DNA of 64,000 nt, taken from Candidatus Baltobacteraceae bacterium. Its GTDB lineage: Bacteria > Vulcanimicrobiota > Vulcanimicrobiia > Vulcanimicrobiales > Vulcanimicrobiaceae. The translations under genes and the position numbers were made by a program. Position 1 is the first letter of the stretch; every line of letters starts with the position of its first letter. Location: positions 1 to 64,000 of the forward strand of contig DASXGW010000005.1 of the NCBI GenBank assembly GCA_036488875.1. Reading direction: 5' to 3'. This document shows positions 11,166 through 56,823 of this stretch, piece after piece. The notes under the pieces were generated by a model, which saw only the letters and a list, made by a program, of their open reading frames with translations, made no database searches and was not told where the DNA came from.

Positions 11166-12152
11166 TTACGTTAGGCCTTTGACGGTGGCGCGGGGGCGGG
11201 CGACGCGCGCTTCGTCTTCCACGGCTTGCCCGGAATCGCCGAACTCGGTGAGAATGCGGTCCGCCGCTTCGTAGGGATCGACGCCGGTCGCGGCGTCGCG
11301 CGCCAGCTTGCGATCGAGCCGGCGTTCGATTCGGCCGAGCGCGAGCTGACGTACCTGATGCAAGAACGCTTGACGCCGCTTCTCTTCGATCTCGCCGCTC
11401 TCGTTGAGATAGGCGACGTGACGTTCGATAGCGGCCCACAAATTATCGACGCCGTCGCCGGCGAGCGCTTGCGTCATCACGAGTTCGGGAACCCATCCAG
11501 GAAACTGCAGCATCTCCATCATCGAGCGAATCTCGCGGCGCAGCTGATTGGCCATCGGGTGATCGGCTTTGTTGACGACGAAGATGTCGGCGATCTCCAT
11601 GATGCCGGCTTTGAGCACTTGAATCGAATCGCCGCTGCCGGGCTGAAGCGCGACGAGCGTCGTGTGCGCGAGCTCGGCGATTTCGATTTCGCTCTGGCCG
11701 ACCCCCACGGTCTCGACGAGGACGACGTCGAGGCCGAACGCATCCATCAGTAACACCGCGTCGGCCGTGGCGCCGGCGAGACCGCCGAGATGACCGCGGC
11801 TCGCCATCGAGCGAATGAACACGTTTTCGTCGGTGAAGTGCTCGGTCAAGCGAATGCGATCGCCCAGCAGCGCACCGTGCGAAAACGGCGAGCTCGGGTC
11901 GACCGAAACGACACCGACGCTCCTCCCGAGCGAACGCGCTTTACGCACCAGTGCCGACGACAAGGTCGACTTTCCGACACCGGGCGGCCCCGTGAGGCCG
12001 ATGGTCGTTGCCCGTCCCGTCTTTGCGTATAGGCGCCGAATCAGCTCGGCCGCGCGTCCCGATTCACCCCACGAAATCGCGCGCGCCAGCGCGCGCGGCT
12101 TTCCTTCGGAGAAGTCGTGCAGGAGCGAGTCGATCGCCTCTTGGTTTGCCAA
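11166..12152 (-). CDS. meaB: methylmalonyl-CoA mutase-associated G3E GTPase MeaB
   Basis: The protein has the P-loop GPPGVGKSTL, the SVDPSSPFSHGALLGDR switch block, SMASRGHLGG, VETVGVGQSE and the base-specifying NKAD motif, in the usual MeaB/ArgK order. MeaB gates cofactor loading and protects the mutase encoded at 218-2461. TTG 12152 gives 329 aa, close to the family length. The frame stays open to a GTG at 12263, but that would overlap the signal peptide of the divergent mannosidase, so I prefer the shorter form. The start is the uncertain part, not the identity. Confidence 0.93.
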   Translation of the reverse strand: MANQEAIDSLLHDFSEGKPRALARAISWGESGRAAELIRRLYAKTGRATTIGLTGPPGVGKSTLSSALVRKARSLGRSVGVVSVDPSSPFSHGALLGDRIRLTEHFTDENVFIRSMASRGHLGGLAGATADAVLLMDAFGLDVVLVETVGVGQSEIEIAELAHTTLVALQPGSGDSIQVLKAGIMEIADIFVVNKADHPMANQLRREIRSMMEMLQFPGWVPELVMTQALAGDGVDNLWAAIERHVAYLNESGEIEEKRRQAFLHQVRQLALGRIERRLDRKLARDAATGVDPYEAADRILTEFGDSGQAVEDEARVARPRATVKGLT

Positions 12153-12196
12153 AGTCCCGAATGATTGGCGCGCGAGGTCAGCGAAGCCTTTGGTCG

Positions 12197-13594
12197 ATGT
12201 CGAGAGCGTACTCTCGCCGGATCGCCGCGTTGTTTCTCGCGGCGGCTTTTGCAGCGGCCGCACTTTTACCAGCCGGCGCGCAAACGCTCAACATTCCCGT
12301 CGAGTCGCACATTCGGCCCATTCAAACGTCGGTGCTCTTCGGCGAGATCTTCGGAAACTTCTTCCCGGAGAGCGACGGCACGACGTACGTACAAACCGGC
12401 GACATTCCGGCGATGTGGCTGCGCGATTCGGCGGCGCAAACGATACCGTATATCCGGTTCGTGTCGGCGTATCCAGGCATGCGCTACGTCTTTTTCGGCG
12501 TGATTCAGCGCGACGCAAAAAACATTCTGGTCAACCCTCACGCCGAGGCGTTTAGCGCCGACTACCACGTCTGGGAAGGCAAGTGGGAGATCGACTCACT
12601 GTCGTGGCCGGTGCTGATGGCGTTCATGTACTACGCCAACACGCACGATCGAACGATCTTCACGCCGGTCTTGCACAAGGCGATGCAGACCATCGTGACG
12701 ACCTTGCAGTGCGAGCAGCACCACGCCACCTGCAGCCACTACTCGTGGCCGCACCCGGTGCCTACGAACAACACCTACAACCCCAATACCGGAATGATTT
12801 GGAGCGCCTTCCGGCCGTCCGACGACCCGGTGACGTACCGCTACAACGTTCCCCAGAACGCGATCGCCGTGATTGCCATGAAGTTGCTGGCGGCGTTCGC
12901 GCGCGACGCGTTCGGCGATCGAAAGCTCGCAAGCGATGCCATGACGCTCGCCGCGCAGGTCCAGACCGGCATCGAGCGTTACGGCCGAACGTGGGTGCCG
13001 AACAAAGGCTGGATGTACGTCTACGAAACCGACGGGTACGGCCGCGACAACCTCATGGACGACGCGAACATTCCCAACCTCACGACGCTGCCCTACCTCG
13101 GCTGGTGCGCGATCGACGATCCCGTCTATCAAAACACGCGCCGCTTCACCTTGAGTTCGCAGAACCCGTATTACTACTCAGGAAAATACGCGACCGGCTT
13201 GGGCAGCCCGCACACCCCTAAGGGGTGGGTGTGGCCGCTGGGCATGATGGGAGCCGCGCTGTCGACGCGCCGCAAAGCCAGAATCGAAAACGCCATCAAC
13301 ATGCTCGATGCCAGCGATACGCTCAATGGCTTGATGCACGAATCGGTCAATCCCAACGATCCGTCGCAGTTCACGCGCCCGGACTTCGGCTGGGCGAACG
13401 CGTTCTGGGCCGATCTGCTTTTTCGAACGGTCGCCGGATACCGCGCCACCGGTTTCGTGGAGTTCGATACCGTAACCCCGTTCGAGCCGCTCAGCGATAT
13501 TCCGACGATCACACCGTTGTTCACGCAGCTCGATAACACGGTGGAAATCAATATGACGCTCGGCGAGCTCCTGTCGCAGCACTCGGCGTTGTGA
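12197..13594 (+). CDS. secreted GH125 exo-alpha-mannosidase (copy 1)
   Basis: The 465-aa protein has an N-terminal signal peptide (SRRIAALFLAAAFAAAALLP, then AGA cleavage). A GH125 domain fills the rest: VQTGDIPAMWLRDSAAQT, KWEIDSLSWPV, MIWSAFRPSDDPVTYR, DANIPNLTTLPYLGW and the C-terminal HESVNPN and FGWANAFWADLL. GH125 enzymes are metal-independent, inverting alpha-1,6-mannosidases. The acid and base are probably the Asp in FRPSDD and the Glu in HES, by analogy. First of an overlapping set; its stop overlaps the next GTG as GTGA. A second copy is at 14700. Confidence 0.93.
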   Translation: MSRAYSRRIAALFLAAAFAAAALLPAGAQTLNIPVESHIRPIQTSVLFGEIFGNFFPESDGTTYVQTGDIPAMWLRDSAAQTIPYIRFVSAYPGMRYVFFGVIQRDAKNILVNPHAEAFSADYHVWEGKWEIDSLSWPVLMAFMYYANTHDRTIFTPVLHKAMQTIVTTLQCEQHHATCSHYSWPHPVPTNNTYNPNTGMIWSAFRPSDDPVTYRYNVPQNAIAVIAMKLLAAFARDAFGDRKLASDAMTLAAQVQTGIERYGRTWVPNKGWMYVYETDGYGRDNLMDDANIPNLTTLPYLGWCAIDDPVYQNTRRFTLSSQNPYYYSGKYATGLGSPHTPKGWVWPLGMMGAALSTRRKARIENAINMLDASDTLNGLMHESVNPNDPSQFTRPDFGWANAFWADLLFRTVAGYRATGFVEFDTVTPFEPLSDIPTITPLFTQLDNTVEINMTLGELLSQHSAL

Positions 13595-14703
13595 TCGCCG
13601 CGCTCGCGGCGGCCGCCCTCCTGAGCGCGTCGCAATCGAGCCGCATCGACGCGATTGTTGCGTCGGTCATGCGCGAAAGCCGCATTGCGGGCCTCTCCTT
13701 GGGAATCGCCCGCAACGGTTCGACGCTCTATCTGCGCGGGTACGGCCTTCGGGATGCCGCGCGAAACCGTCGGGCCGATGCCTTCACGATCTACGCTGCC
13801 GGATCGATAGCGAAACAGTTCACGGCCGCGCTGGTGTTGCAAGACGTGGCGCAAGGCCGGCTCGCACTCGACCAAGGTAAACCGTCGATCCAAGCGCTGC
13901 TGTGGCAAATAACCGACGACACGTGGGAGTACCGCAACGAGAACTACGCCGCACTGGGCACCGCGCTCGAGCGCACCGGCAACGCATCGTACTGCACGCT
14001 CGCGTCGCAGCGCATCTTCGTCCCGTACGGTCTGGTCTCGACGTGGTGCGGCGCGCCGTACCCGGCGTGGAATCTCGCCGTGACGCAACGCACGCCGCAG
14101 TGGATCGCTCCGGCAGCCGGCGGTCTCTGGTCCAACGCGCCGGACCTCTTGCGCTGGCTCGACGACTTGCGCACGGGTCGCGTCGTTACGCCGGCGTCGT
14201 TCGAGGCGATGACGACCTCGGGTCACCTGCGCGGCGGCATCCTCACGAACTATGGCTTCGGTTTCTTCACCGGCGTATGGTACGGCTATCCGGTGGCGTT
14301 CGCGGACGGATTGGTCGACGGCTACTCGTCCGAAGACGCGCTGTCGCTGAGCGACGGGCTCGAGCTGGCGCTACTCTCCAACGGCGATCGGGTCGATCTG
14401 ACCCCGCTGGCCAAAAGCGTCTTTTCTATCGTCGACCCGCCGCGCGACAAGAACTCCTACGCCGTACCGAACTCGGCGCCCGAAAACGAAAACACGCCGA
14501 TTACCGCAGCGATTGCGCGCGCGCTGCAGACGCCTGCGTACGCGAGCTACGGCAAGCTCGAGCTGCTGGAGTTCACCGAACGCACGATTAAGGGAACCAC
14601 GACGTACGACCGCTATCGCGCCACGTTCGAACGCGCCGTGCTGTGGGTTACCGTCGAATACGGGCCCGGCAACGCGATCGAATCGGTGAACGTCTCGCCG
14701 TGA
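13591..14703 (+). CDS. beta-lactamase-fold serine hydrolase between two mannosidases
   Basis: The 370-aa protein has a short signal-like start (MIAALAAAALLSASQS). It has the class C nucleophile motif S-I-A-K in YAAGSIAKQFTAALVL and the Y-x-N motif in YRNENYAALG. The third motif, usually H-x-G, reads ADGLVDGYSS, so the His is replaced. Substrate cannot be told: peptidase, esterase or transacylase are all possible. The GTG start overlaps the first mannosidase stop as GTGA, and its own stop overlaps the second mannosidase start the same way. It is therefore very likely co-translated with them. Confidence 0.85.
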   Translation: MIAALAAAALLSASQSSRIDAIVASVMRESRIAGLSLGIARNGSTLYLRGYGLRDAARNRRADAFTIYAAGSIAKQFTAALVLQDVAQGRLALDQGKPSIQALLWQITDDTWEYRNENYAALGTALERTGNASYCTLASQRIFVPYGLVSTWCGAPYPAWNLAVTQRTPQWIAPAAGGLWSNAPDLLRWLDDLRTGRVVTPASFEAMTTSGHLRGGILTNYGFGFFTGVWYGYPVAFADGLVDGYSSEDALSLSDGLELALLSNGDRVDLTPLAKSVFSIVDPPRDKNSYAVPNSAPENENTPITAAIARALQTPAYASYGKLELLEFTERTIKGTTTYDRYRATFERAVLWVTVEYGPGNAIESVNVSP

Positions 14704-16103
14704 GACGCATAGCCGCCCTCACGCTCGCCGCGGTCGTCGCGTACTCGTGCGCCCCCGCGCGCCTGGGGGCACAAGTGCTCTTCGTGCCGCTGACCGGTAA
14801 ACGCGTGCGCGACATTCAAACGGCGCAGCTCTTTCACACGCTCTTCACCGATTTCTTCTTGGAAGACGACAACACGACGTACGTTCAGACCGGCGACATT
14901 CCCGCTATGTGGATGCGCGATTCAGCCGCGCAAACGATCCCCTACGTGCGCTATCAGCGCGAATACCCCGTGCTGCACGCGCGCTTCGAAGGCGTCATCA
15001 AACGCAACGCGCGCAACGTTCTTACCGACGTGTACGCCAATGCGTTCCAAGCCGACTACCACGTCTGGGAACGCAAGTGGGAGATCGATTCGCTGTCGTG
15101 GCCGGTCGTGCTCGCTTGGGTGTATTGGCGCGTGACGCGCGATCGCACGATGTTCACGCCCGACTTGCACGTCGCGCTGCGGCAGATCGTCTTTACGTAC
15201 AGGTGCGAAGAGCACCACCGGAAGTGCAATCGCTACACGTATCCGTACCGCGTGCCGACGATCGACCGGTACAACGACGACACGGGAATGATTTGGAGCG
15301 CGTTTCGCCCGTCCGACGACCCGGTGACGTACCGCTTCAACGTGCCGCAAAACGCGTTTGCCGTCGTCGCGCTGCGCGACATCGAGCGGCTCGCGACCCA
15401 GGGCTACGGCGACGGCGAGCTGGCGACTGAGGCGCGCGCGCTCGGCGACCGCGTGCAACGCGGCGTTCAGTTGTACGGACGATTTTACAGTTCGGCGCGG
15501 CGCGCGTGGATGTATGCGTACGAAACCGACGGATACGGCAACTACAATCTTATGGACGACGCGAACATTCCCAACCTGACGACCTTGCCGTACGTCGACT
15601 GGTGCTCCGCCTACGATCCGGCGTACCTCGCCACGCGCACGTTTGCGCTCAGCATGGACAACCCGTATTTCTTCTCGGGGCGCTACGCGGAAGGCTTGGG
15701 CAGTCCGCACACGCCGTATGGTTACGTTTGGCCGTTGGGCATCATCGGGCGCGCGCTGACGTCGACCTCGTCGGCGGAGGTGGCCGAAGCGATCACCACG
15801 CTCGCGGAGACCAACGGCGACGCCGAACTCTTTCACGAAAGCTTCTATCCGGACGGGTACTGGCGGTACACGCGCAGCGATTTTGGATGGGCAAACGCGC
15901 TGGGCGCCGAGCTGTACTTTCGCAGCTTGGCCGGAGACTCAGCAACCCAGTTTGCGGCCGATGGTCCCGTGTTGCCCTTCGAGGGCCGAACCCGCACTCC
16001 GACCCTCGTCCCCGAGCTAACCCAGCTGCGCAACGCCGCCGAGCTGAGCGGCACCCTCGGCAACCTGCTCCACCGGCAGCCCGCACTGCCCCACGGACCC
16101 TAG
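14700..16103 (+). CDS. secreted GH125 exo-alpha-mannosidase (copy 2)
   Basis: The 467-aa protein starts at GTG 14700 with a signal peptide (RRIAALTLAAVVAYSCAPA, ALGA-type cleavage). It carries the same GH125 blocks as copy 1 (VQTGDIPAMWMRDSAAQT, KWEIDSLSWPVV, MIWSAFRPSDDPVTYR, DANIPNLTTLPY, HESFYPD). The two copies are clearly paralogous but have diverged over their whole length, so this is not a recent duplication. A Cys in the signal region (YSCAP) could make it a lipoprotein. Two mannosidases may cleave different mannosyl linkages or positions. Stop TAG 16101-16103; 53 bases to the tricorn gene. Confidence 0.93.
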   Translation: MRRIAALTLAAVVAYSCAPARLGAQVLFVPLTGKRVRDIQTAQLFHTLFTDFFLEDDNTTYVQTGDIPAMWMRDSAAQTIPYVRYQREYPVLHARFEGVIKRNARNVLTDVYANAFQADYHVWERKWEIDSLSWPVVLAWVYWRVTRDRTMFTPDLHVALRQIVFTYRCEEHHRKCNRYTYPYRVPTIDRYNDDTGMIWSAFRPSDDPVTYRFNVPQNAFAVVALRDIERLATQGYGDGELATEARALGDRVQRGVQLYGRFYSSARRAWMYAYETDGYGNYNLMDDANIPNLTTLPYVDWCSAYDPAYLATRTFALSMDNPYFFSGRYAEGLGSPHTPYGYVWPLGIIGRALTSTSSAEVAEAITTLAETNGDAELFHESFYPDGYWRYTRSDFGWANALGAELYFRSLAGDSATQFAADGPVLPFEGRTRTPTLVPELTQLRNAAELSGTLGNLLHRQPALPHGP

Positions 16104-48533: not shown

Positions 48534-49241
48534 TTAATAGAACCGGCGAACCGCTTCGTTCCACCACGGCCAATCGTGACCGAAAACGCCGGGCCAAATC
48601 TCGCAGTGATTCGGGACGCCTTTACTCCATAGCAACGTCGAGAAGTCGCGGTTCTGCTGCACGAGGGAGTCGTGCTCGCCCGTCGCGATCGTCCATTGCA
48701 CTGCGCGCAGGCGATCGATCCATTCGCCGTTCATATTCGGGACGTACGCCGTCGGACAGTTGAAGTAACAGTTATCGTCCCAATAACCGTTGACGAAACG
48801 GTGAATGTCGTAGATTCCCGACAAGCAGACCGCCTTGCTGACGAGCCCTGGATAGCGCGCCGCGAAGTTCGCCGCGTGGTACGCGCCGAAACTGCAGCCG
48901 AACACGCCCATGTCGCCTCGGTTTGCGACGTTTTGCACGTGCGGTGCGAACTCGTCGCGCAGATACGCATCGTACTGCGTCTGACGAAGCGCCCGGTACG
49001 ACGGCGGCGCGCCGTCGTTGTACCAACTCTCGGCGTCGACGGAATCGACGCAAAAGAGCTGAACGAACCCGGCGTCGACTTTATCGGTAAGGTAGCCGAC
49101 CGTATTCTGGTCTTCGTATTGATGGAAGCTGCCCATCGACGTTGGGAAAAAGATCACCGGGAAGCCGCGGTCCCCGAAGCGCAAGAAATCCATCTGGCGC
49201 TGTAAGGACTGGCTAAACCAGGACCCCTGTTGGCGGTTCAT
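48534..49241 (-). CDS. alpha/beta-hydrolase esterase (COG4947-like)
   Basis: The 235-aa protein has the nucleophile elbow GCSFGAYHA and FGHDWPWW near the end with the likely His-Asp. It begins MNRQQGSWFSQSLQRQMDFL, with no signal peptide. The pattern matches the esterase family often found beside ATP-grasp/GCS2 ligase genes. ATG 49241; longer reading upstream is the complement of the ligase gene. It is divergent from the ATP-grasp gene with 57 bases between starts. Within a ligase cluster it could act as a thioesterase, esterase or releasing enzyme. Confidence 0.87.
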   Translation of the reverse strand: MNRQQGSWFSQSLQRQMDFLRFGDRGFPVIFFPTSMGSFHQYEDQNTVGYLTDKVDAGFVQLFCVDSVDAESWYNDGAPPSYRALRQTQYDAYLRDEFAPHVQNVANRGDMGVFGCSFGAYHAANFAARYPGLVSKAVCLSGIYDIHRFVNGYWDDNCYFNCPTAYVPNMNGEWIDRLRAVQWTIATGEHDSLVQQNRDFSTLLWSKGVPNHCEIWPGVFGHDWPWWNEAVRRFY

Positions 49242-49298
49242 CGCTGGCCCGTTTCGGGCGCGCGTAGGGGCGCGCCTTCGTGCCTTGAATCTCCCTCT

Positions 49299-50273
49299 AT
49301 GGCACACGCACGCTCGAATCGCATCGGCATCCTCTTCGGTATGGAGGACACCTTCCCGTGGGCTTTGATGAACGCGATCACCACCCGGTCGGCGGGCGAA
49401 TTCGAGGGGTGTCCGGTAGAGCTTTCCTATCTGCACGACAAGCAGAACTTCAACTATGCGGCGATCCTCGACCGTATCAGCCACGACGTCAAGTTCTATC
49501 GCGTATATCTAAAATGCGCCGCCGCACGCGGCGTCGTCGTCGTGAACAATCCGTACTGGTGGACCGCCGACGATAAGTTCTTCAACAACCTCGTCGCCGA
49601 TTCGGTCGGCGTCGCGACGCCAAAAACCGTACTGCTGCCGCCCAAGGAGCATCCGCCCGGAACGCAAGCGACGTCGTTTCGCAACATGCGCTTCATCAAC
49701 TGGAGCGAAGTCTTCGGTTACTTAGGGTTCCCGATTTTTATGAAGCCGGCGGACGGCGGCGGATGGCGCGACGTACACAAATGCGACACCCCCGAAGAGT
49801 TCTTCGCCGCCTACGACAGCTCGCGCGATCTTTGCATGATGGCGCAAGAGGCGATCGACTTTACCGAGTACTTCCGACTTTACGTACTCGGGCGCTCGCG
49901 CGTCCACATCATGCGCTACGATCCCGGTGCGCCGATACACGAGCGTTACGTGAAGGACGCTCCGCCGATTCATCTTGAGATGGAGGCGCGGCTGCGCCGC
50001 GACGGTATCGCACTGTGCGAAGCGCTGGGCTACGACATGAATACGGTCGAGTTTGCGGTGCGCGACGGCATTCCGTACGCGATCGACTTCATGAATCCGT
50101 CGCCCGATGCCGAACGCGCGTCGGTCGGCGAAGAAAACTTTAACTGGGTCGTCGAGAACATGGCCGACGTGTTGATCGATCGCTGCCGGAATCCGCGGCC
50201 GTTCGAAACGACTGGCGTGTGGCCCAAGACGCTCGTCGACGGCAGCGGCTCGGCGCCGATCTCGGTGCATTAG
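49299..50273 (+). CDS. ATP-grasp ligase (RimK-like), first gene of an amidoligase cluster
   Basis: The 324-aa protein has the ATP-grasp central Lys region (FPIFMKPADGGGWRDVHKC) and the metal-binding end (NTVEFAVRDGIPYAIDFMNPSPD, with E and D-x-N). Such enzymes form an acyl phosphate and join it to an amine. No signal. ATG 49299 gives MAHARSNRIGILFGMEDTFP; its Shine-Dalgarno is weak. It leads a plus-strand series with GCS2, amidotransferase and a permuted ATP-grasp. Substrate unknown. Confidence 0.85.
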   Translation: MAHARSNRIGILFGMEDTFPWALMNAITTRSAGEFEGCPVELSYLHDKQNFNYAAILDRISHDVKFYRVYLKCAAARGVVVVNNPYWWTADDKFFNNLVADSVGVATPKTVLLPPKEHPPGTQATSFRNMRFINWSEVFGYLGFPIFMKPADGGGWRDVHKCDTPEEFFAAYDSSRDLCMMAQEAIDFTEYFRLYVLGRSRVHIMRYDPGAPIHERYVKDAPPIHLEMEARLRRDGIALCEALGYDMNTVEFAVRDGIPYAIDFMNPSPDAERASVGEENFNWVVENMADVLIDRCRNPRPFETTGVWPKTLVDGSGSAPISVH

Positions 50274-50281
50274 GTAGCGCT

Positions 50282-51400
50282 GTGACGGCAATCGCGGTGC
50301 CCACCTTCACGCTGGGTATCGAAGAAGAGTTCCAGGTCATCGATCCGGAGACGCGCGAGCTGCGCTCGCATCTCGCCGAAATGTTCGCGCAAGGCGAGCA
50401 AACCATGGGCGAACAGATCAAGCGCGAGATGCATCAGCCGGTGATCGAGGTCGGCACCAACATCTGCGCCGACATGCGCGACGCGCGTCGAGAAGTGACC
50501 AAGCTGCGCACGGAAATCGTGCGGCTCGCGCGGCAAAACGGAATGCGCGTCGCGGCGGCGGGAACGCATCCGTTCACGCACTGGTCGAACGTCGAGATCA
50601 CCGATCACGAACGCTACGCCAAGCTGATCTACGATCTGCAGATGGTCGCGCGCGCAAACTTGATTTTTGGATTGCACGTTCACGTCGCCGTCGAGGATCC
50701 CGACACCCGCATCCACATCATGAACGCCGTGCGGTACTTCTTGCCGCATATTTTTGCGCTCTCGGTGAACTCGCCGTTCTGGTGCGGCACCAACACGGGT
50801 TGGAAGAGCTACCGCGCGAAAGTCTTCGAGCGCTTCCCGCGCACCGGCATTCCGGATTACTTCGGCTCGGCGGCGGAGTACGAAGACTTCGTCAAGACGC
50901 TGGTCGTGACCGGCTGCATCGACAACGCGAAGAAGATCTGGTGGGACGTGCGTCCTCATCCATTCTTTCCGACGCTCGAATACCGCATCTGCGACGTTCC
51001 GATGCGCATCGACGAGACGCTGTGTTTTGCGGCGCTCTTCCAGGCGTTGACGTACAAACTTTACCGTCTGTTCAGCCGCAATCAAGGTTGGCGCCTCTAC
51101 CGCCGCTCGCTCATTGCCGAGAACAAGCAGCGGGCCGCGCGGTGGGGAATCGACGGAAAGCTCGTCGATTTGGGTAAACGCGTCGAGATTCCCACGGAGT
51201 CGCTAATGCAGGAGCTGCTGGCGTTCATCGACGACGTCGTCGACGATCTGGGTTCCCGTGAAGAAGTGAACTACGTCTACGAGATCATCCAGCGGCGAAC
51301 CGGCGCGGACCGGCAGCTGGCCGTCTACGAACAGACCGGCAGCTTGCAAGCAGTGGTAGACTATATCGTCAGTGAAACGGAACAAGGATTAACGGTTTGA
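50282..51400 (+). CDS. carboxylate-amine ligase, GCS2 family (COG2170)
   Basis: The 372-aa protein starts TLGIEEEFQVIDPETRELRS, the GCS2/YbdK-type start with the metal-binding Glu residues, and contains GLHVHVAVED and NSPFWCGTNTGWKSYRAKVF. It belongs to the glutamate-cysteine ligase superfamily and would make a gamma-glutamyl-type or other amide bond. GTG 50282, 8 bases after the ATP-grasp stop. Its stop overlaps the next start (TTGA). Confidence 0.9.
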   Translation: MTAIAVPTFTLGIEEEFQVIDPETRELRSHLAEMFAQGEQTMGEQIKREMHQPVIEVGTNICADMRDARREVTKLRTEIVRLARQNGMRVAAAGTHPFTHWSNVEITDHERYAKLIYDLQMVARANLIFGLHVHVAVEDPDTRIHIMNAVRYFLPHIFALSVNSPFWCGTNTGWKSYRAKVFERFPRTGIPDYFGSAAEYEDFVKTLVVTGCIDNAKKIWWDVRPHPFFPTLEYRICDVPMRIDETLCFAALFQALTYKLYRLFSRNQGWRLYRRSLIAENKQRAARWGIDGKLVDLGKRVEIPTESLMQELLAFIDDVVDDLGSREEVNYVYEIIQRRTGADRQLAVYEQTGSLQAVVDYIVSETEQGLTV

Positions 51401-52416
51401 GCGCAACGTTCGCATATCTACGGCCGCAAACGGCGGAGGAAATTCCCACTCCCGGTCCCGAGTTCGTCGACGTCGCCGTGCTCGACATGAATCACGCCCA
51501 CCACAACGCCGGGCACGATTCGATCGTCGGCCTGGTACGGCGTCTGTCCGCGGATATGGCTTCGAGCCTGGAGTCGGAGCGCCTGACCGTGCGTCTCACG
51601 TCGTACGACGTTCGCCGGCTCTCGCTGCTTCCGCGACTGCACGACGGTCCGTCGCTGATTTTGGGAACCGGCGGTCCCGGGCATCTGGATCCGCGACTCA
51701 ACCGCCGTGACGCCGTCGACGAAGGCGAGATTCTGGAGTCGGCGGAGTGGGAAGAACCGCTCTTCGATTTCTTCGACGCCGTCGACCGGCACGATACCGC
51801 GATGTTCTACGCCGTCTGCCATTCGTTCGGTCTGCTCTGCCGGTGGTCCGGAATCGCCGAGCCCACCCTACGCGGCGAGCGAAAGGGCGGGCCCAGCATA
51901 GGGATCGTCGATAACGTGCTGACGCCGCAAGCGCTCGAGCATCCTTGGTTCGCGCGCCTCGCGTCACACCTGCCCGACGGCAAACATCTTCCCGTCGTCG
52001 ACTCGCGCCATTACGACTTAATCCCCACGCGTAAGCGTTTTCCGCGCGGCGTCGTGCCGGTCGCTTTCGAAACGCAAGCCGGCGGCGAGCCGGGCGATGC
52101 GCTGACGATGGTCGAGTTCGCGCGCAAGCGCAACGGCACGCCGCGCGTCTTCGCGGTGAACCATCATCCGGAGATTCCCGACGCCGCCGAGCTCTCCGAA
52201 CTGCTCGAACGCAAGCTGCGCGAAGGCGAAGTCTCGCAAGACTGGTATGCGAGCCGAGCCGCGCTGGTCGAACGGCTGCAGCGCAACGATCACAGCGAGC
52301 CGGCGCGGCTGCTCGCCGCGGGTTATTCGTTCGCGTTTTTGGTGCGTGACGGTCTGAAGGATCTCATCGAAGATCGCAGGCAGCGGCGTGGACGCACGGT
52401 ATCGAGCGCTCTTTAA
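51397..52416 (+). CDS. class-I glutamine amidotransferase-like protein
   Basis: The 339-aa protein has a nucleophile-elbow Cys141 in FYAVCHSFGLL and a downstream VNHHPEIPD, matching the Cys-His-Glu triad of class-I amidotransferases. Extra N- and C-terminal helices make it longer than a bare domain. It may supply ammonia or hydrolyse a gamma-glutamyl bond (as in PuuD-type hydrolases). TTG 51397 overlaps the GCS2 stop. Its end overlaps the next gene by 29 bases. Confidence 0.85.
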   Translation: MSATFAYLRPQTAEEIPTPGPEFVDVAVLDMNHAHHNAGHDSIVGLVRRLSADMASSLESERLTVRLTSYDVRRLSLLPRLHDGPSLILGTGGPGHLDPRLNRRDAVDEGEILESAEWEEPLFDFFDAVDRHDTAMFYAVCHSFGLLCRWSGIAEPTLRGERKGGPSIGIVDNVLTPQALEHPWFARLASHLPDGKHLPVVDSRHYDLIPTRKRFPRGVVPVAFETQAGGEPGDALTMVEFARKRNGTPRVFAVNHHPEIPDAAELSELLERKLREGEVSQDWYASRAALVERLQRNDHSEPARLLAAGYSFAFLVRDGLKDLIEDRRQRRGRTVSSAL

Positions 52417-53632
52417 CGCCGGCTACACGGACGATCTCTATCGGCGGTATATCGCCGATTTTTTCCGGCGCTGCGACTGTCCGACCGACATGCAGATCGC
52501 CGAGACGCCGGTTTTTCTCCCCGCGAAGCTGCGCGAACGCTGCGAGCGCGCCGGCGCCGAAATCCTCGCGCAACTCTGCGACCCTGCGCGCATCTCCAAA
52601 ATGCGCGCCGCTATTGCGCCGCGGTGGGACACGCCGGGCGAAACTTCGCTGCCCACGTTTTGCATCATCGACTTCGCACTCACCGAGGACACCAACGGCG
52701 AACTGGCGCCGAAGCTCATCGAACTGCAAGGTTTTCCGACGCTCATCGGTTACGAAACGATGCAGCGCGACGCCTGGAACGAAGCTCTGCAATCGATCGG
52801 CGGGTTGGAGCTGGATTGGACGTGCTGGTTTTCGGGACTAAGCCGCGACGCGTTTATCGCTTTAGCTAAACGCGTCATTCTCGGCGACAAGGATCCGGAA
52901 AACGTCGTCCTCATGGATTTCGATCCGCCGGCGCAAAAGACGTATCCCGACTTCATCGCGAGCAAGGTGCTGTTCGGAATCGACTCGGTCTGCCCGACCT
53001 CGTTGACCAAGCGCGGCCGGCGTCTGTTTCGAAAGACTGACAACGGTAAAGACGTTCCCGTCGAGCGCATCTACAACCGCGTGATCTTCGATGAGCTCGA
53101 ACGCAAGAACGTGACCTTGGCTTGGGATTTTCGCGACGACCTCGACGTAGAATGGACGCCCCATCCGAACTGGTTCTGGACCTGGTCGAAGTTCTCGCTG
53201 CCCTTTCTCGACCACCCGGCGGCCCCGCGCGCTACGCTCGTTTCGCACCTCGACGATTTACCGGCGCACGTCACCGAGGGCTTCGTGACCGAAAACTACG
53301 TGCTCAAACCGTTGTTCTCGTTCGCGGGTGCCGGCGTCAACGTTTCGCCGACCGCGGCGGACGTCGCGGCGATTCCCGCGGATCAACGCGATGGCTGGTG
53401 CCTGCAAGAGAAGATCGCGTATGCGCCCGCGCTGCGGGCAGCCGATGGCGGAAGCGGCGTGAAGGTTGAGCTGAGGATGATTTACTTGCGGCCCGACGAC
53501 GCGCCGGAGTTTACGCTCGCGCAGAACCTATGCCGCCTGTCGCGCGGCGCAATGATGGGTGTCGACCACAACAAGAAGCATCGTTGGGTGGGTTCGTCGA
53601 TCGCCCTCTGGCCGGCGAGCGAGAGCGGATGA
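52388..53632 (+). CDS. circularly permuted ATP-grasp-like protein
   Basis: The 414-aa protein places an E-containing KLIELQGFPTLIGYET block (about 100-117) before the Lys/Gly loop ENYVLKPLFSFAGAGVNV (about 300-317) and the hinge-like LQEKIAYAP. That order is reversed relative to normal ATP-grasps and agrees with the glutathionylspermidine-synthase type. It likely makes another amide bond in the same pathway. GTG 52388 overlaps the amidotransferase gene by 29 bases. Family call is tentative. Confidence 0.65.
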   Translation: MDARYRALFNAGYTDDLYRRYIADFFRRCDCPTDMQIAETPVFLPAKLRERCERAGAEILAQLCDPARISKMRAAIAPRWDTPGETSLPTFCIIDFALTEDTNGELAPKLIELQGFPTLIGYETMQRDAWNEALQSIGGLELDWTCWFSGLSRDAFIALAKRVILGDKDPENVVLMDFDPPAQKTYPDFIASKVLFGIDSVCPTSLTKRGRRLFRKTDNGKDVPVERIYNRVIFDELERKNVTLAWDFRDDLDVEWTPHPNWFWTWSKFSLPFLDHPAAPRATLVSHLDDLPAHVTEGFVTENYVLKPLFSFAGAGVNVSPTAADVAAIPADQRDGWCLQEKIAYAPALRAADGGSGVKVELRMIYLRPDDAPEFTLAQNLCRLSRGAMMGVDHNKKHRWVGSSIALWPASESG

Positions 53633-54144
53633 GCGTCGACTGGGGCGTCGTCTTTGGCTTGACGGGTCTCGCCGTCGGCAGCCTCTCGCTGGTCTACGCC
53701 CGCACTCAGGCGATTCACGCTCGGCGTCAAGCCGATGCCGCACATTTATCTACTACGCTTCAGTTACAGCGCGAAATGAGCGATCGAATTTTCCAACACC
53801 GTGCGGCGCTGATACGCGATCCGTCGGTCGCCAAAGCCTACTACGAGGCCATCCCCCATTTCGCGAAGCTTCTGGACGAAGGCGCCGTGGGGATCGAGGG
53901 TATCACCACGATTCGCAACGCGATCGACGGTTTCCAAGACGTTTACTTCCTCCGCAAACGCGGGATCATCGAGGAGTACCACTGGCGTGCCTGGTATTCG
54001 GCATTCGCGGTACTCGCGCGTTCGCCGGTGATGCGCATCGTTTACGACGCCGCCATCGCGCGCAGCGCACTCGATCCCGAATTCGCGGCGTACTTCGCGC
54101 CGTTGCTCGACCTTCAACCGCTCGCCGATCCAAAAGGAAAATAA
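53629..54144 (+). CDS. 171-aa protein with one N-terminal TM segment
   Basis: The protein starts MSVDWGVVFGLTGLAVGSLS, with one TM segment then a helical cytoplasmic or periplasmic domain (QREMSDRIFQHRAALIRDPS). ATG 53629 overlaps the permuted ATP-grasp stop as ATGA, and a serpin gene follows 3 bases later. Similar small proteins of unknown role occur widely. Not recognised as a named family. Confidence 0.7.
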   Translation: MSVDWGVVFGLTGLAVGSLSLVYARTQAIHARRQADAAHLSTTLQLQREMSDRIFQHRAALIRDPSVAKAYYEAIPHFAKLLDEGAVGIEGITTIRNAIDGFQDVYFLRKRGIIEEYHWRAWYSAFAVLARSPVMRIVYDAAIARSALDPEFAAYFAPLLDLQPLADPKGK

Positions 54145-54147
54145 AGC

Positions 54148-55356
54148 ATGTGGAAGCGGAGCCGTACGATATGCACCCTCGCTCTCGCGCTGGGAGTCGT
54201 GCCGATCGCATGCGCGGCTTCTTCGGGCCCCGATCTTTCGCAAGCCTACAACGGCTTCGGATTCGCGCTCTTCGCGAACCTGGCCAAGGAAAACGCCGGC
54301 AAAAATACCTTCATTTCGCCGACGAGCATCGCGCTCGCGCTCGCGATCGCGTCCAACGGGGCGGCCGGAAACACCCGCGCGTCGATGCTGAAAACGCTCG
54401 GCGCGCCAGGCGCGTCGATCGAAGAATTCGATGCTTCCAATAAAGCGCTGATGGCGGAGCTGACGAATCCGGGCAGCGATCTTCAGTTCACGATCGCTAA
54501 CGCATTGTGGGTCAACAAGCAGTTTTCGATCGTGCCGGCGTTCGTCACGACGAGCCGCGACGTCTTCTCGGCAACCGCGCAAGACTTGCCGTTCGGTGAG
54601 TCGAGTGCGGCACAAACGATCAACGATTGGGTCAATAAGAACACGAACGGGCGGATTCCCGAGATCGTCGATTCCACCGATCCTAACGACGTGCTCGTGA
54701 TCACCAACGCGATCGCCATGAAAGCCAAATGGCTCGCACCGTTTCAAAAAGACGATACGCACGACGCGCCGTTCGAGACGGGGTCCGGCGGTCACGTGAC
54801 CGTCTCCATGATGTCGAGCAACGGCGGTTTCGAGTATGCCGATCGCGACGGCTGGCAGGTGGCACGGCTCCCGTATCGCGGCAACCGCTTCGCGATGTAC
54901 GTTTTGCTTCCGCACGAGGGAACGGCGCTGGGGGGCGTGCTGAACGCCTTCGACCGGGCCACCTTCGACCGCCTGACGTCCGGCCTGCCGGACCAGCGCA
55001 TCGCCTTCGCGATGCCGCGTTACACCGCGACCTTCAAGGCCGAGCTCAACGCGCCGCTCTCGCGGCTGGGCATGGCTGGGGCCTTTGAACCGGGCGCCGC
55101 CGACTTCAGCCGTCTCGTAGCCCCGCCCCAGCGGGCCTTCATCAGCCTGGTGGTCCACCGCGCCTTCGTCCGCGTCGACGAGGAAGGCACCGAGGCGGCA
55201 GCCGCCACCGCGGTCACGATGCGGGCAACGGCCATCATGATGCCGCCCGAAAAGCGGATGATCGTCGACCGCCCCTTCCTGATGGCCATCCGGGACGACC
55301 GCACGAAGCAGATCCTCTTCCTGGGAGCGATCTACGACCCGGGGAAACCTGAGTAA
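54148..55356 (+). CDS. exported serpin (serine protease inhibitor)
   Basis: The 402-aa protein has a signal peptide (TLALALGVVPIACA) and the serpin fold: NTFISPTSIALALAIASNGA, NALWVNKQF, VITNAIAMKAKWLAPF, and RPFLMAIRD near the end. The reactive-loop hinge EEGTEAAAATAV has small residues, as in inhibitory serpins. The P1 region is around ATA with no basic residue, so elastase-like or chymotrypsin-like targets are likely. Possible lipoprotein because of the Cys. 3 bases after the 171-aa gene. It could restrain the secreted proteases encoded nearby. Confidence 0.94.
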   Translation: MWKRSRTICTLALALGVVPIACAASSGPDLSQAYNGFGFALFANLAKENAGKNTFISPTSIALALAIASNGAAGNTRASMLKTLGAPGASIEEFDASNKALMAELTNPGSDLQFTIANALWVNKQFSIVPAFVTTSRDVFSATAQDLPFGESSAAQTINDWVNKNTNGRIPEIVDSTDPNDVLVITNAIAMKAKWLAPFQKDDTHDAPFETGSGGHVTVSMMSSNGGFEYADRDGWQVARLPYRGNRFAMYVLLPHEGTALGGVLNAFDRATFDRLTSGLPDQRIAFAMPRYTATFKAELNAPLSRLGMAGAFEPGAADFSRLVAPPQRAFISLVVHRAFVRVDEEGTEAAAATAVTMRATAIMMPPEKRMIVDRPFLMAIRDDRTKQILFLGAIYDPGKPE

Positions 55357-55467: not shown

Positions 55468-56823
55468 ATGTCTGACGGTTTGAGCATTGCCAACAATCTG
55501 CTCGCCAATAGCGTCCAGTTAAATCTGGACAGCAATCAGAAGCAGTTACAAAACACCGTTACGCAGCTCTCGTCGGGCTTGCGGATCAATTCCGCCGCGG
55601 ACGACCCGTCGGGCCTCGCGATCGCGACCAATCTGCAGACCAAAGCCGACGGTTTCAATCAAGCCGCGCAAAACGTGCAGAACGCGAACAACGCCACTCA
55701 AGTCGCGCTCGGTGCCCTCACGTCGACGACCAACATCTTGCAGCGCATCCGCAGTCTCGCCGTCGAAGCCGCGTCGGACATCAACAGCAACAACGACCGG
55801 CTCAACCTGCAGACCGAGGTCACGCAGTTGCTGCTGGAAGTCAACCGCATCTCGCAAAACACGAACTTCAACGGGCAGCCGCTGCTCGACGGCTCGCACG
55901 CCGGATTCCAATCCGAACAGGACGCGTTTCTTACGGTTACGGCCAACACCGCGCTCGCGACGAACGGCGCAAAGGCTAGCGTCAACGGCGTGAACTACGG
56001 CTTCTTGGTCGCTTCCGCGACGCCGTTTGCGGTCGGCGGTACCAACTACTTCAACACCACTCCGGGCGGCACGTATACGGGCGTTTTCGGTCTCGGGAAC
56101 GGCGGCGGCGATCAGGCAACGGTCGACGGCACGCTCGAACTGCAAGTCGTGAATACCGGCATCTCAATCGCCGTCCAAGAGACGTTCATCGAGAGCGCTA
56201 CGGGCCTCATATGCGTATCGAGCACCCTGTTCGGCCCCAGCGCAGCGACGGCGACCAAGCGAAACATCCTGAACAACGTCGTCGGCGCGCAGGGAGTGAG
56301 CGGGTTCGATAACGTCGTCATCACGCTGGGCGCGATAACCACCGCCGACGTTGGTACCACCGCGTACATCAAGATCAGTCAAAACGTCGCGGCCCTGACC
56401 AACCCGAACAATCCCGCCTTTAACTTCCAGTCGGGTTCCGACGAAGGCGACGTGATTCAGGTGGGCATCGAAGCGACCAACACGTCGACCTTGCGCATCT
56501 CGAACGTCAATCTCGCGATCTCGTCGGCCAACAATCCGTCGCTCGGTGCCGAAGACACCATCGGGCAGATCGATAACGCTCTACAGCGCTTGTTGAACCA
56601 GCAGGCGCAGCTCGGCGCGGTCGTCGTCCGCTTGAATATCGACGAAGACTCCGACAACGTCGCCGCAACGAATCTGCAGGCGGCCGAGTCGAACATTCGC
56701 GACCTTAACGTCGGCCAGGCGACCACCCAGTTTACCAAGCTGCAGATCCTCGTTCAGGTCGGCACGTCGGTGCTGGCGCAGAGCAACGCCAACGCGCAAT
56801 CGGTACTGACGCTCTTCCGTTAA
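55468..56823 (+). CDS. fliC: flagellin
   Basis: The 451-aa protein has the conserved D0/D1 start (LSSGLRINSAADDPSGLAIA, QTALGALTST-like region) and the C-terminal helices ending TQFTKLQILVQVGTSVLAQS. The central part (about 140-330) is variable and Gly/Thr-rich, with one Cys (LICVSS), rare in flagellins. AAGGAGG precedes ATG 55468. No other flagellar gene is in the window, so it is a lone filament gene behind a sigma-28 promoter. Confidence 0.95.
   Translation: MSDGLSIANNLLANSVQLNLDSNQKQLQNTVTQLSSGLRINSAADDPSGLAIATNLQTKADGFNQAAQNVQNANNATQVALGALTSTTNILQRIRSLAVEAASDINSNNDRLNLQTEVTQLLLEVNRISQNTNFNGQPLLDGSHAGFQSEQDAFLTVTANTALATNGAKASVNGVNYGFLVASATPFAVGGTNYFNTTPGGTYTGVFGLGNGGGDQATVDGTLELQVVNTGISIAVQETFIESATGLICVSSTLFGPSAATATKRNILNNVVGAQGVSGFDNVVITLGAITTADVGTTAYIKISQNVAALTNPNNPAFNFQSGSDEGDVIQVGIEATNTSTLRISNVNLAISSANNPSLGAEDTIGQIDNALQRLLNQQAQLGAVVVRLNIDEDSDNVAATNLQAAESNIRDLNVGQATTQFTKLQILVQVGTSVLAQSNANAQSVLTLFR

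Follow-up and report, generated by a model that had tools for sequence, protein, structure and literature searches.

The locus considered here raises the question of whether five adjacent genes of a bacterium of the Vulcanimicrobiota (Candidatus Eremiobacterota; genome of 3.7 Mb) act together in forming amide bonds and, if so, what kind of molecule they make. Within the window (the whole stretch of 64,000 nucleotides that was analysed), the plus-strand operon ATPg-GCS2-GAT-cpATPg spans positions 49299-53632 and encodes an ATP-grasp ligase related to D-Ala-D-Ala ligase/RimK (ATPg, 49299..50273), a carboxylate-amine ligase of the YbdK family and PRK13515 equivalog (GCS2, 50282..51400), a protein of class-I glutamine-amidotransferase fold that is probably a gamma-glutamyl-type hydrolase (GAT, 51397..52416) and a circularly permuted ATP-grasp enzyme of the glutathionylspermidine synthetase/YgiC/glutathione synthetase fold (cpATPg, 52388..53632). 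Divergent to the operon, on the minus strand, lies the gene of an alpha/beta-hydrolase esterase (EST, PF00756; 48534..49241), which the first-pass annotation labelled COG4947-like. The first-pass annotation had described four tightly packed genes faced by an esterase, and the coordinates bear this out: ATPg and GCS2 are 8 bp apart, GCS2 and GAT overlap by 4 bp (TTGA), GAT and cpATPg overlap by 29 bp and the EST-ATPg spacer is 57 bp. The start of GCS2 is ambiguous, with the GTG at 50282 most likely and in agreement with the homologs, and a longer frame from 50219 also open. A small gene (53629..54144, +) is ATGA-coupled to cpATPg and may, in this genus, be part of the operon; of the Vulcanimicrobiota loci that were looked at, only that of a member of the same genus (L011, 15074-15523) has a homolog at this position. 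A promoter scan of the locus found nothing, no inverted repeat is reported in the EST/ATPg spacer, and terminator-like matches are only modestly above those of shuffled sequences and lie mostly inside genes. Elsewhere in the window are a full-length serpin (PF00079, 344 bits; 54148-55356, +), followed downstream by a flagellin-like gene (55468-56823), and, at 12008-16103 (+), two similar open reading frames that appear GH125-like by eye (12008-13594 and 14643-16103) with a beta-lactamase-like frame (13591-14703) between them.

Gene order is evidence that the cluster works as a unit and has been conserved as such. A scan of the genome collection with an ATPg alignment yielded 241 confirmed relatives, the best 80 of which were examined together with 40 further loci drawn from Acidobacteriota and Bacteroidota genomes. 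Loci with ATPg, GCS2 and cpATPg within reach were counted as complete (n = 71, a few species perhaps sampled twice), and in all 71, from Vulcanimicrobiota, Acidobacteriota and Bacteroidota, the arrangement ATPg-GCS2-[slot]-cpATPg is collinear and on a single strand. Chance is thus excluded, the possibility that the homologs are always scattered falls away, and the earlier proposal of a coherent amide-bond-forming cluster gains support. As the same order recurs in three phyla, the five genes probably constitute one conserved metabolic pathway, with a small peptide-like molecule as its predicted product. The orientation of EST varies: loci of the Vulcanimicrobiota/Thermoanaerobaculia type have it divergent, and in Bacteroidota and most loci that carry an M29 metallopeptidase in the slot it is co-directional.

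The distribution of the cluster is patchy. Of 118 genomes of the host phylum, 8 carry GAT, cpATPg and ATPg together (a count that leaves out one extra weak GAT match of 6e-4), all of them from the host's own family, within which the three genes searched are all-or-none; in other Vulcanimicrobiota families, ATPg is the only one of the three with relatives. Taken by itself, the ATPg marker is found in 59/199 sampled Acidobacteriota and 86/247 sampled Bacteroidota genomes, the full cluster being rarer. Trees built for ATPg, for GCS2 and for cpATPg recover the same three blocks: Bacteroidota, Bryobacterales, and Thermoanaerobaculia with Vulcanimicrobiota. Acidobacteriota are split in all three and the Vulcanimicrobiota cluster adjoins that of Thermoanaerobaculia, a topology that fits transfer of the cluster as a unit; the alternatives are vertical inheritance followed by loss, and errors of binning. 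Plasmid-borne spread was rejected, as none of 72,556 plasmids matched ATPg. One record titled Rhodospirillales (CAJCIN010000027.1, L022) bears a Vulcanimicrobiota-type cluster and is probably misbinned or misnamed.

The catalytic motifs named in the first reading are present and are invariant in the relatives of ATPg, GAT, cpATPg and the esterase. EST matches the Pfam Esterase family (PF00756, 2.9e-8) and esterase-family structures of the PDB, and its catalytic residues are S119 (the nucleophile of GCSFG), D193 and H224. ATPg retains K149, E184, E251, D263 and N266 (the Lys, the Glu and the metal-binding Glu/Asp/Asn); in the PDB, its profile finds D-Ala-D-Ala ligases as well as biotin carboxylases, and by sequence comparison the enzyme is a distant relative of D-Ala-D-Ala ligase/RimK. 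GCS2 has the GIEEEF motif, matches PF04107 (7e-62) and, at 525 versus 371 bits, exceeds the curated cut-off of PRK13515 (NF010039), above which no control genome has a match; the gene is the sole match to the GCS2 protein query across the host genome. GCS2 is thus placed among the YbdK/PRK13515 carboxylate-amine ligases and also matches YbdK structures; E. coli YbdK itself is not known to lie in such an operon.

The proposal that the last gene encodes a permuted ATP-grasp enzyme is upheld by the fold of its model (pLDDT 90). The structures that this cpATPg model resembles include E. coli YgiC (Z 25.7, 3.5 A over 344 residues), YjfC (Z 25.4), human glutathione synthetase GSS (Z 23.7) and glutathionylspermidine synthetase GspS (Z 23.1), as well as Cp1B and trypanothione synthetase, whereas against ordinary ATP-grasps (LysX/RimK) the Z score drops to about 8. 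D95, E112, Q114, K307 and E361 are invariant in 25/25 relatives. The window protein has no Pfam match and PF03738 is matched weakly in 8/25 relatives (best 6e-4), below the cut-off; cpATPg is therefore classed as having the same fold as, and working like, the PF03738 enzymes rather than as a member. A profile comparison with hhalign gave a weak match over the common SK..LP and VLKPLFS motifs, and a designed cytokine chain in the PDB, hit by the cpATPg profile, was set aside as a chance match. E. coli YgiC, YjfC and glutathionylspermidine synthetase (Gss) resemble cpATPg throughout the fold (Z 23-26) and in the region of the SK..LP and V[LV]KP motifs, but cpATPg has about 10-14% identity to them, the metal motif ELQ instead of E.N (Q where N is expected), no fused amidase and other gene partners. 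YgiC and YjfC, named peptide--spermidine ligases in RefSeq, are called peptidylpolyamine synthetases (PMC12568646) and, as that paper reports of Pederick 2023, are peptide-spermidine ligases. Eukaryotic glutathione/homoglutathione synthetase and Cp1B have the same permuted ATP-grasp fold at 7-14% identity in structural alignments and form amides onto an acid or a gamma-Glu peptide, Cp1B joining epoxysuccinate to amino acids in E-64 biosynthesis (PMC12568646). Unlike the Cp1B (E-64) system, the operon has neither an epoxysuccinate synthase nor an ANL ligase.

The slot between GCS2 and cpATPg bears most directly on what GAT does. GAT has the class-I glutamine amidotransferase fold (model pLDDT 92) and a Cys-His-Glu triad (C141, H257-P-E259) that is invariant in 25/25 relatives; PF00117 is matched in 11/25 of these relatives, and the window protein is without a Pfam match. 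Its top fold matches, spread over about 3 Z, include glutamine amidotransferases (those of Thermotoga and Methylobacillus, and DnfC, among the best), gamma-glutamyl peptidase 1 (GGP1), MetA, PuuD, SpuA and gamma-glutamyl hydrolase (GGH). True amidotransferases and gamma-glutamyl peptidases tie in Z, so that the fold is as compatible with ammonia transfer as with gamma-glutamyl hydrolysis; the fold and triad are common to GAT, GGP1, PuuD, SpuA, GGH and the class-I amidotransferases, from all of which GAT differs by extra C-terminal helices and by the lack of a Pfam match in the window protein. The slot holds GAT in 62/71 complete loci, an M29 metallopeptidase in 7/71 (from Bryobacterales and one Bacteroidota locus), nothing recognised in 2/71 and both in 0/71. 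The Bryobacterales slot gene is an M29 metallopeptidase by PF02073 (8e-14), and the M29 slot proteins keep the E, E, H and H-x-D positions, which are taken to be the expected M29 metal ligands. Since a peptidase can replace a gamma-glutamyl hydrolase and not a glutaminase that feeds ammonia, and since the two share the slot and never occur together, the swap favours a hydrolase. GAT is thus probably a hydrolase, likely of gamma-glutamyl type, rather than an ammonia supplier, a conclusion drawn from replacement; the exchange falls short of proof of functional equivalence, and two loci have neither GAT nor M29. The earlier description of a glutamine-cleaving domain holds as far as the class-I fold and triad go, and its ammonia supply is made doubtful by the M29 enzyme in the slot and by gamma-glutamyl hydrolases that fit equally well.

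Taken with the observed gene set, order, folds, invariant catalytic residues and slot swap, these assignments suggest, at about even chances, a non-ribosomal cassette for a small peptide, in which a unit of gamma-glutamyl type is joined with an amino acid and, probably, with an amine, and two hydrolases serve in trimming or turnover. GCS2 would activate a glutamate-type carboxylate and form a gamma-glutamyl (or similar) amide, the D-Ala-D-Ala-ligase-like ATPg may add or supply a second residue, and cpATPg would close the chain by joining its carboxylate to an amine, which may be an amino acid or a polyamine. Removal of an N-terminal or gamma-glutamyl residue may fall to the GAT-fold protein (in Bryobacterales, to the M29 metallopeptidase), and EST may hydrolyse an ester or amide bond of the product or of one of its precursors. 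Every substrate in this scheme is conjectural, as are the order of the steps and the direction, whether that of synthesis accompanied by trimming or of a cycle of making and breaking. A polyamine acceptor is supported indirectly, by the assignment of YgiC and YjfC as peptide-spermidine ligases and by the presence in the host genome of an AdoMet decarboxylase (AdoMet_dc, above cut-off) with a spermidine-synthase-like (SpeE-like) gene 2 kb away that scores below its family cut-off; spermidine would be a plausible acceptor for cpATPg. Polyamine genes are common, however, so their presence is weak evidence, and cpATPg is also near Cp1B, which links an organic acid to amino acids and not to polyamines. 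The equal Z scores of amidotransferases among the fold neighbors of GAT and the Q-for-N change in the cpATPg metal motif also count against the small-peptide cassette. More tentatively, and with the odds clearly against it, the product could be a widespread peptide-amine conjugate (gamma-glutamyl-X-polyamine or similar), with the GAT-fold protein and M29 as non-homologous stand-ins for one trimming step.

Other explanations of the gene set differ in the weight given to single members. Were GAT a genuine amidotransferase, ammonia from glutamine would pass to an ATP-grasp enzyme and give an amidated metabolite or a peptide carboxamide; the intact triad, the amidotransferases among the best folds and the PF00117 matches are all as this predicts, but the M29 metallopeptidase in the slot, the equally good gamma-glutamyl peptidase/hydrolase matches and the lack of any synthetase seen fused to GAT or of CarB type make it a rather unlikely alternative. 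A new low-molecular-weight thiol pathway, in which GCS2 would make gamma-Glu-Cys for extension by the GSS-fold cpATPg and ATPg to a glutathione analog, draws on the relationship of GCS2 to glutamate-cysteine ligase, on the eukaryotic glutathione synthetase fold of cpATPg and on the absence of a GshB (TIGR01380) match from the host genome (97.6% complete), for which reason canonical glutathione synthesis was rejected. Against this, cysteine specificity would have to be assumed, the substrates of YbdK-type GCS2 enzymes are broad or not known, neither an esterase nor a peptidase partner would be expected beside a standing thiol, and the distribution is patchy even inside one family (the 8/118 sampled genomes of the phylum); an analog of glutathione is thus considered improbable. 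The first-pass view that no known glutathione-like pathway fits stands insofar as no known pathway was found to explain the set, and is too strong in that the GSS/GspS fold of cpATPg and the glutamate-cysteine ligase kinship of GCS2 give the cluster a logic resembling gamma-glutamyl-peptide-polyamine chemistry, despite the absence of a bacterial glutathione synthetase.

Ester chemistry is suggested by the pair of EST and ATPg, the most stable of the cluster, which 14 loci carry without the other genes, GCS2 and cpATPg among them: an ATPg that acts like a D-Ala-D-Lac ligase would join a carboxylate to a hydroxyl, EST would open the ester and the other enzymes would add amide-linked residues to form a depsipeptide. 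While ATPg matches D-Ala-D-Ala and VanA-type ligases, the sequence similarity is weak, no hydroxy-acid genes were noticed nearby and the EST family is broad, with many substrates hydrolysed by its members, such that there is little probability of a depsipeptide route. Neighboring genes of particular lineages could instead point to a salvage module for dipeptides or arginine, tied to cyanophycin or arginine catabolism and not biosynthetic. Cyanophycin synthetase (cphA) lies directly beyond cpATPg in eight Chryseobacterium-lineage loci (L073, L082, L085, L087, L089, L092, L096 and L097), with cyanophycinase (cphB) also present in several; an arginase-like gene, judged by eye, is found just past EST in three Vulcanimicrobiota loci (L013, 771-1682; L016, 12833-13744; L020, about 1162-2493); and an M17 peptidase is encoded upstream in Weeksellaceae. 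These neighbors are lineage-bound and missing from most loci, and three ATP-consuming ligases are ill-suited to pure degradation, which renders salvage very improbable. Two further roles were rejected: anti-phage defence, as none of the five proteins matches a PADLOC model at E 0.01, and modification of the flagellin encoded 1.8 kb downstream, an idea prompted by the ATP-grasp gene of Shewanella sfm, as flagellin and serpin are not among the cluster neighbors listed for the relatives.

Bacteroidota show further variation around the core. Weeksellaceae have additional upstream genes for an esterase (with a weak N-terminal match of glycogen-binding type), the M17 aminopeptidase and an ATP-grasp_4 ligase, and an alternative Bacteroidota cassette (L179, 8059-13711; L180; L182) combines ATPg, CP_ATPgrasp_2, GAT and a second PF00756 esterase, with ATP-grasp_4 in some (e.g., L179). 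These differing cassettes suggest a modular exchange of ligases and hydrolases, as Iyer et al. 2009 reportedly described for amidoligase systems in general.

In kind, the cluster belongs to the ATP-grasp/GCS2 amidoligase operons already known from comparative genomics. Iyer et al. 2009 (Mol Biosyst 5:1636) are reported to have predicted operons in which ATP-grasp and glutamine-synthetase-like (GCS2) ligases occur with peptidases and hydrolases, and the present cluster resembles these. Apparently new here are the fold to which cpATPg is assigned, the exchange of GAT for M29 and the occurrence across phyla; in the open-licence literature searched, a functional study of this gene set was not found. 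The cpATPg fold and the GAT/M29 swap open concrete and cheap biochemical tests, and the cluster is present in cultured Weeksellaceae. Given the frequency of the ATPg marker in Acidobacteriota and Bacteroidota, a common metabolite of soil and host-associated bacteria may be uncharted.
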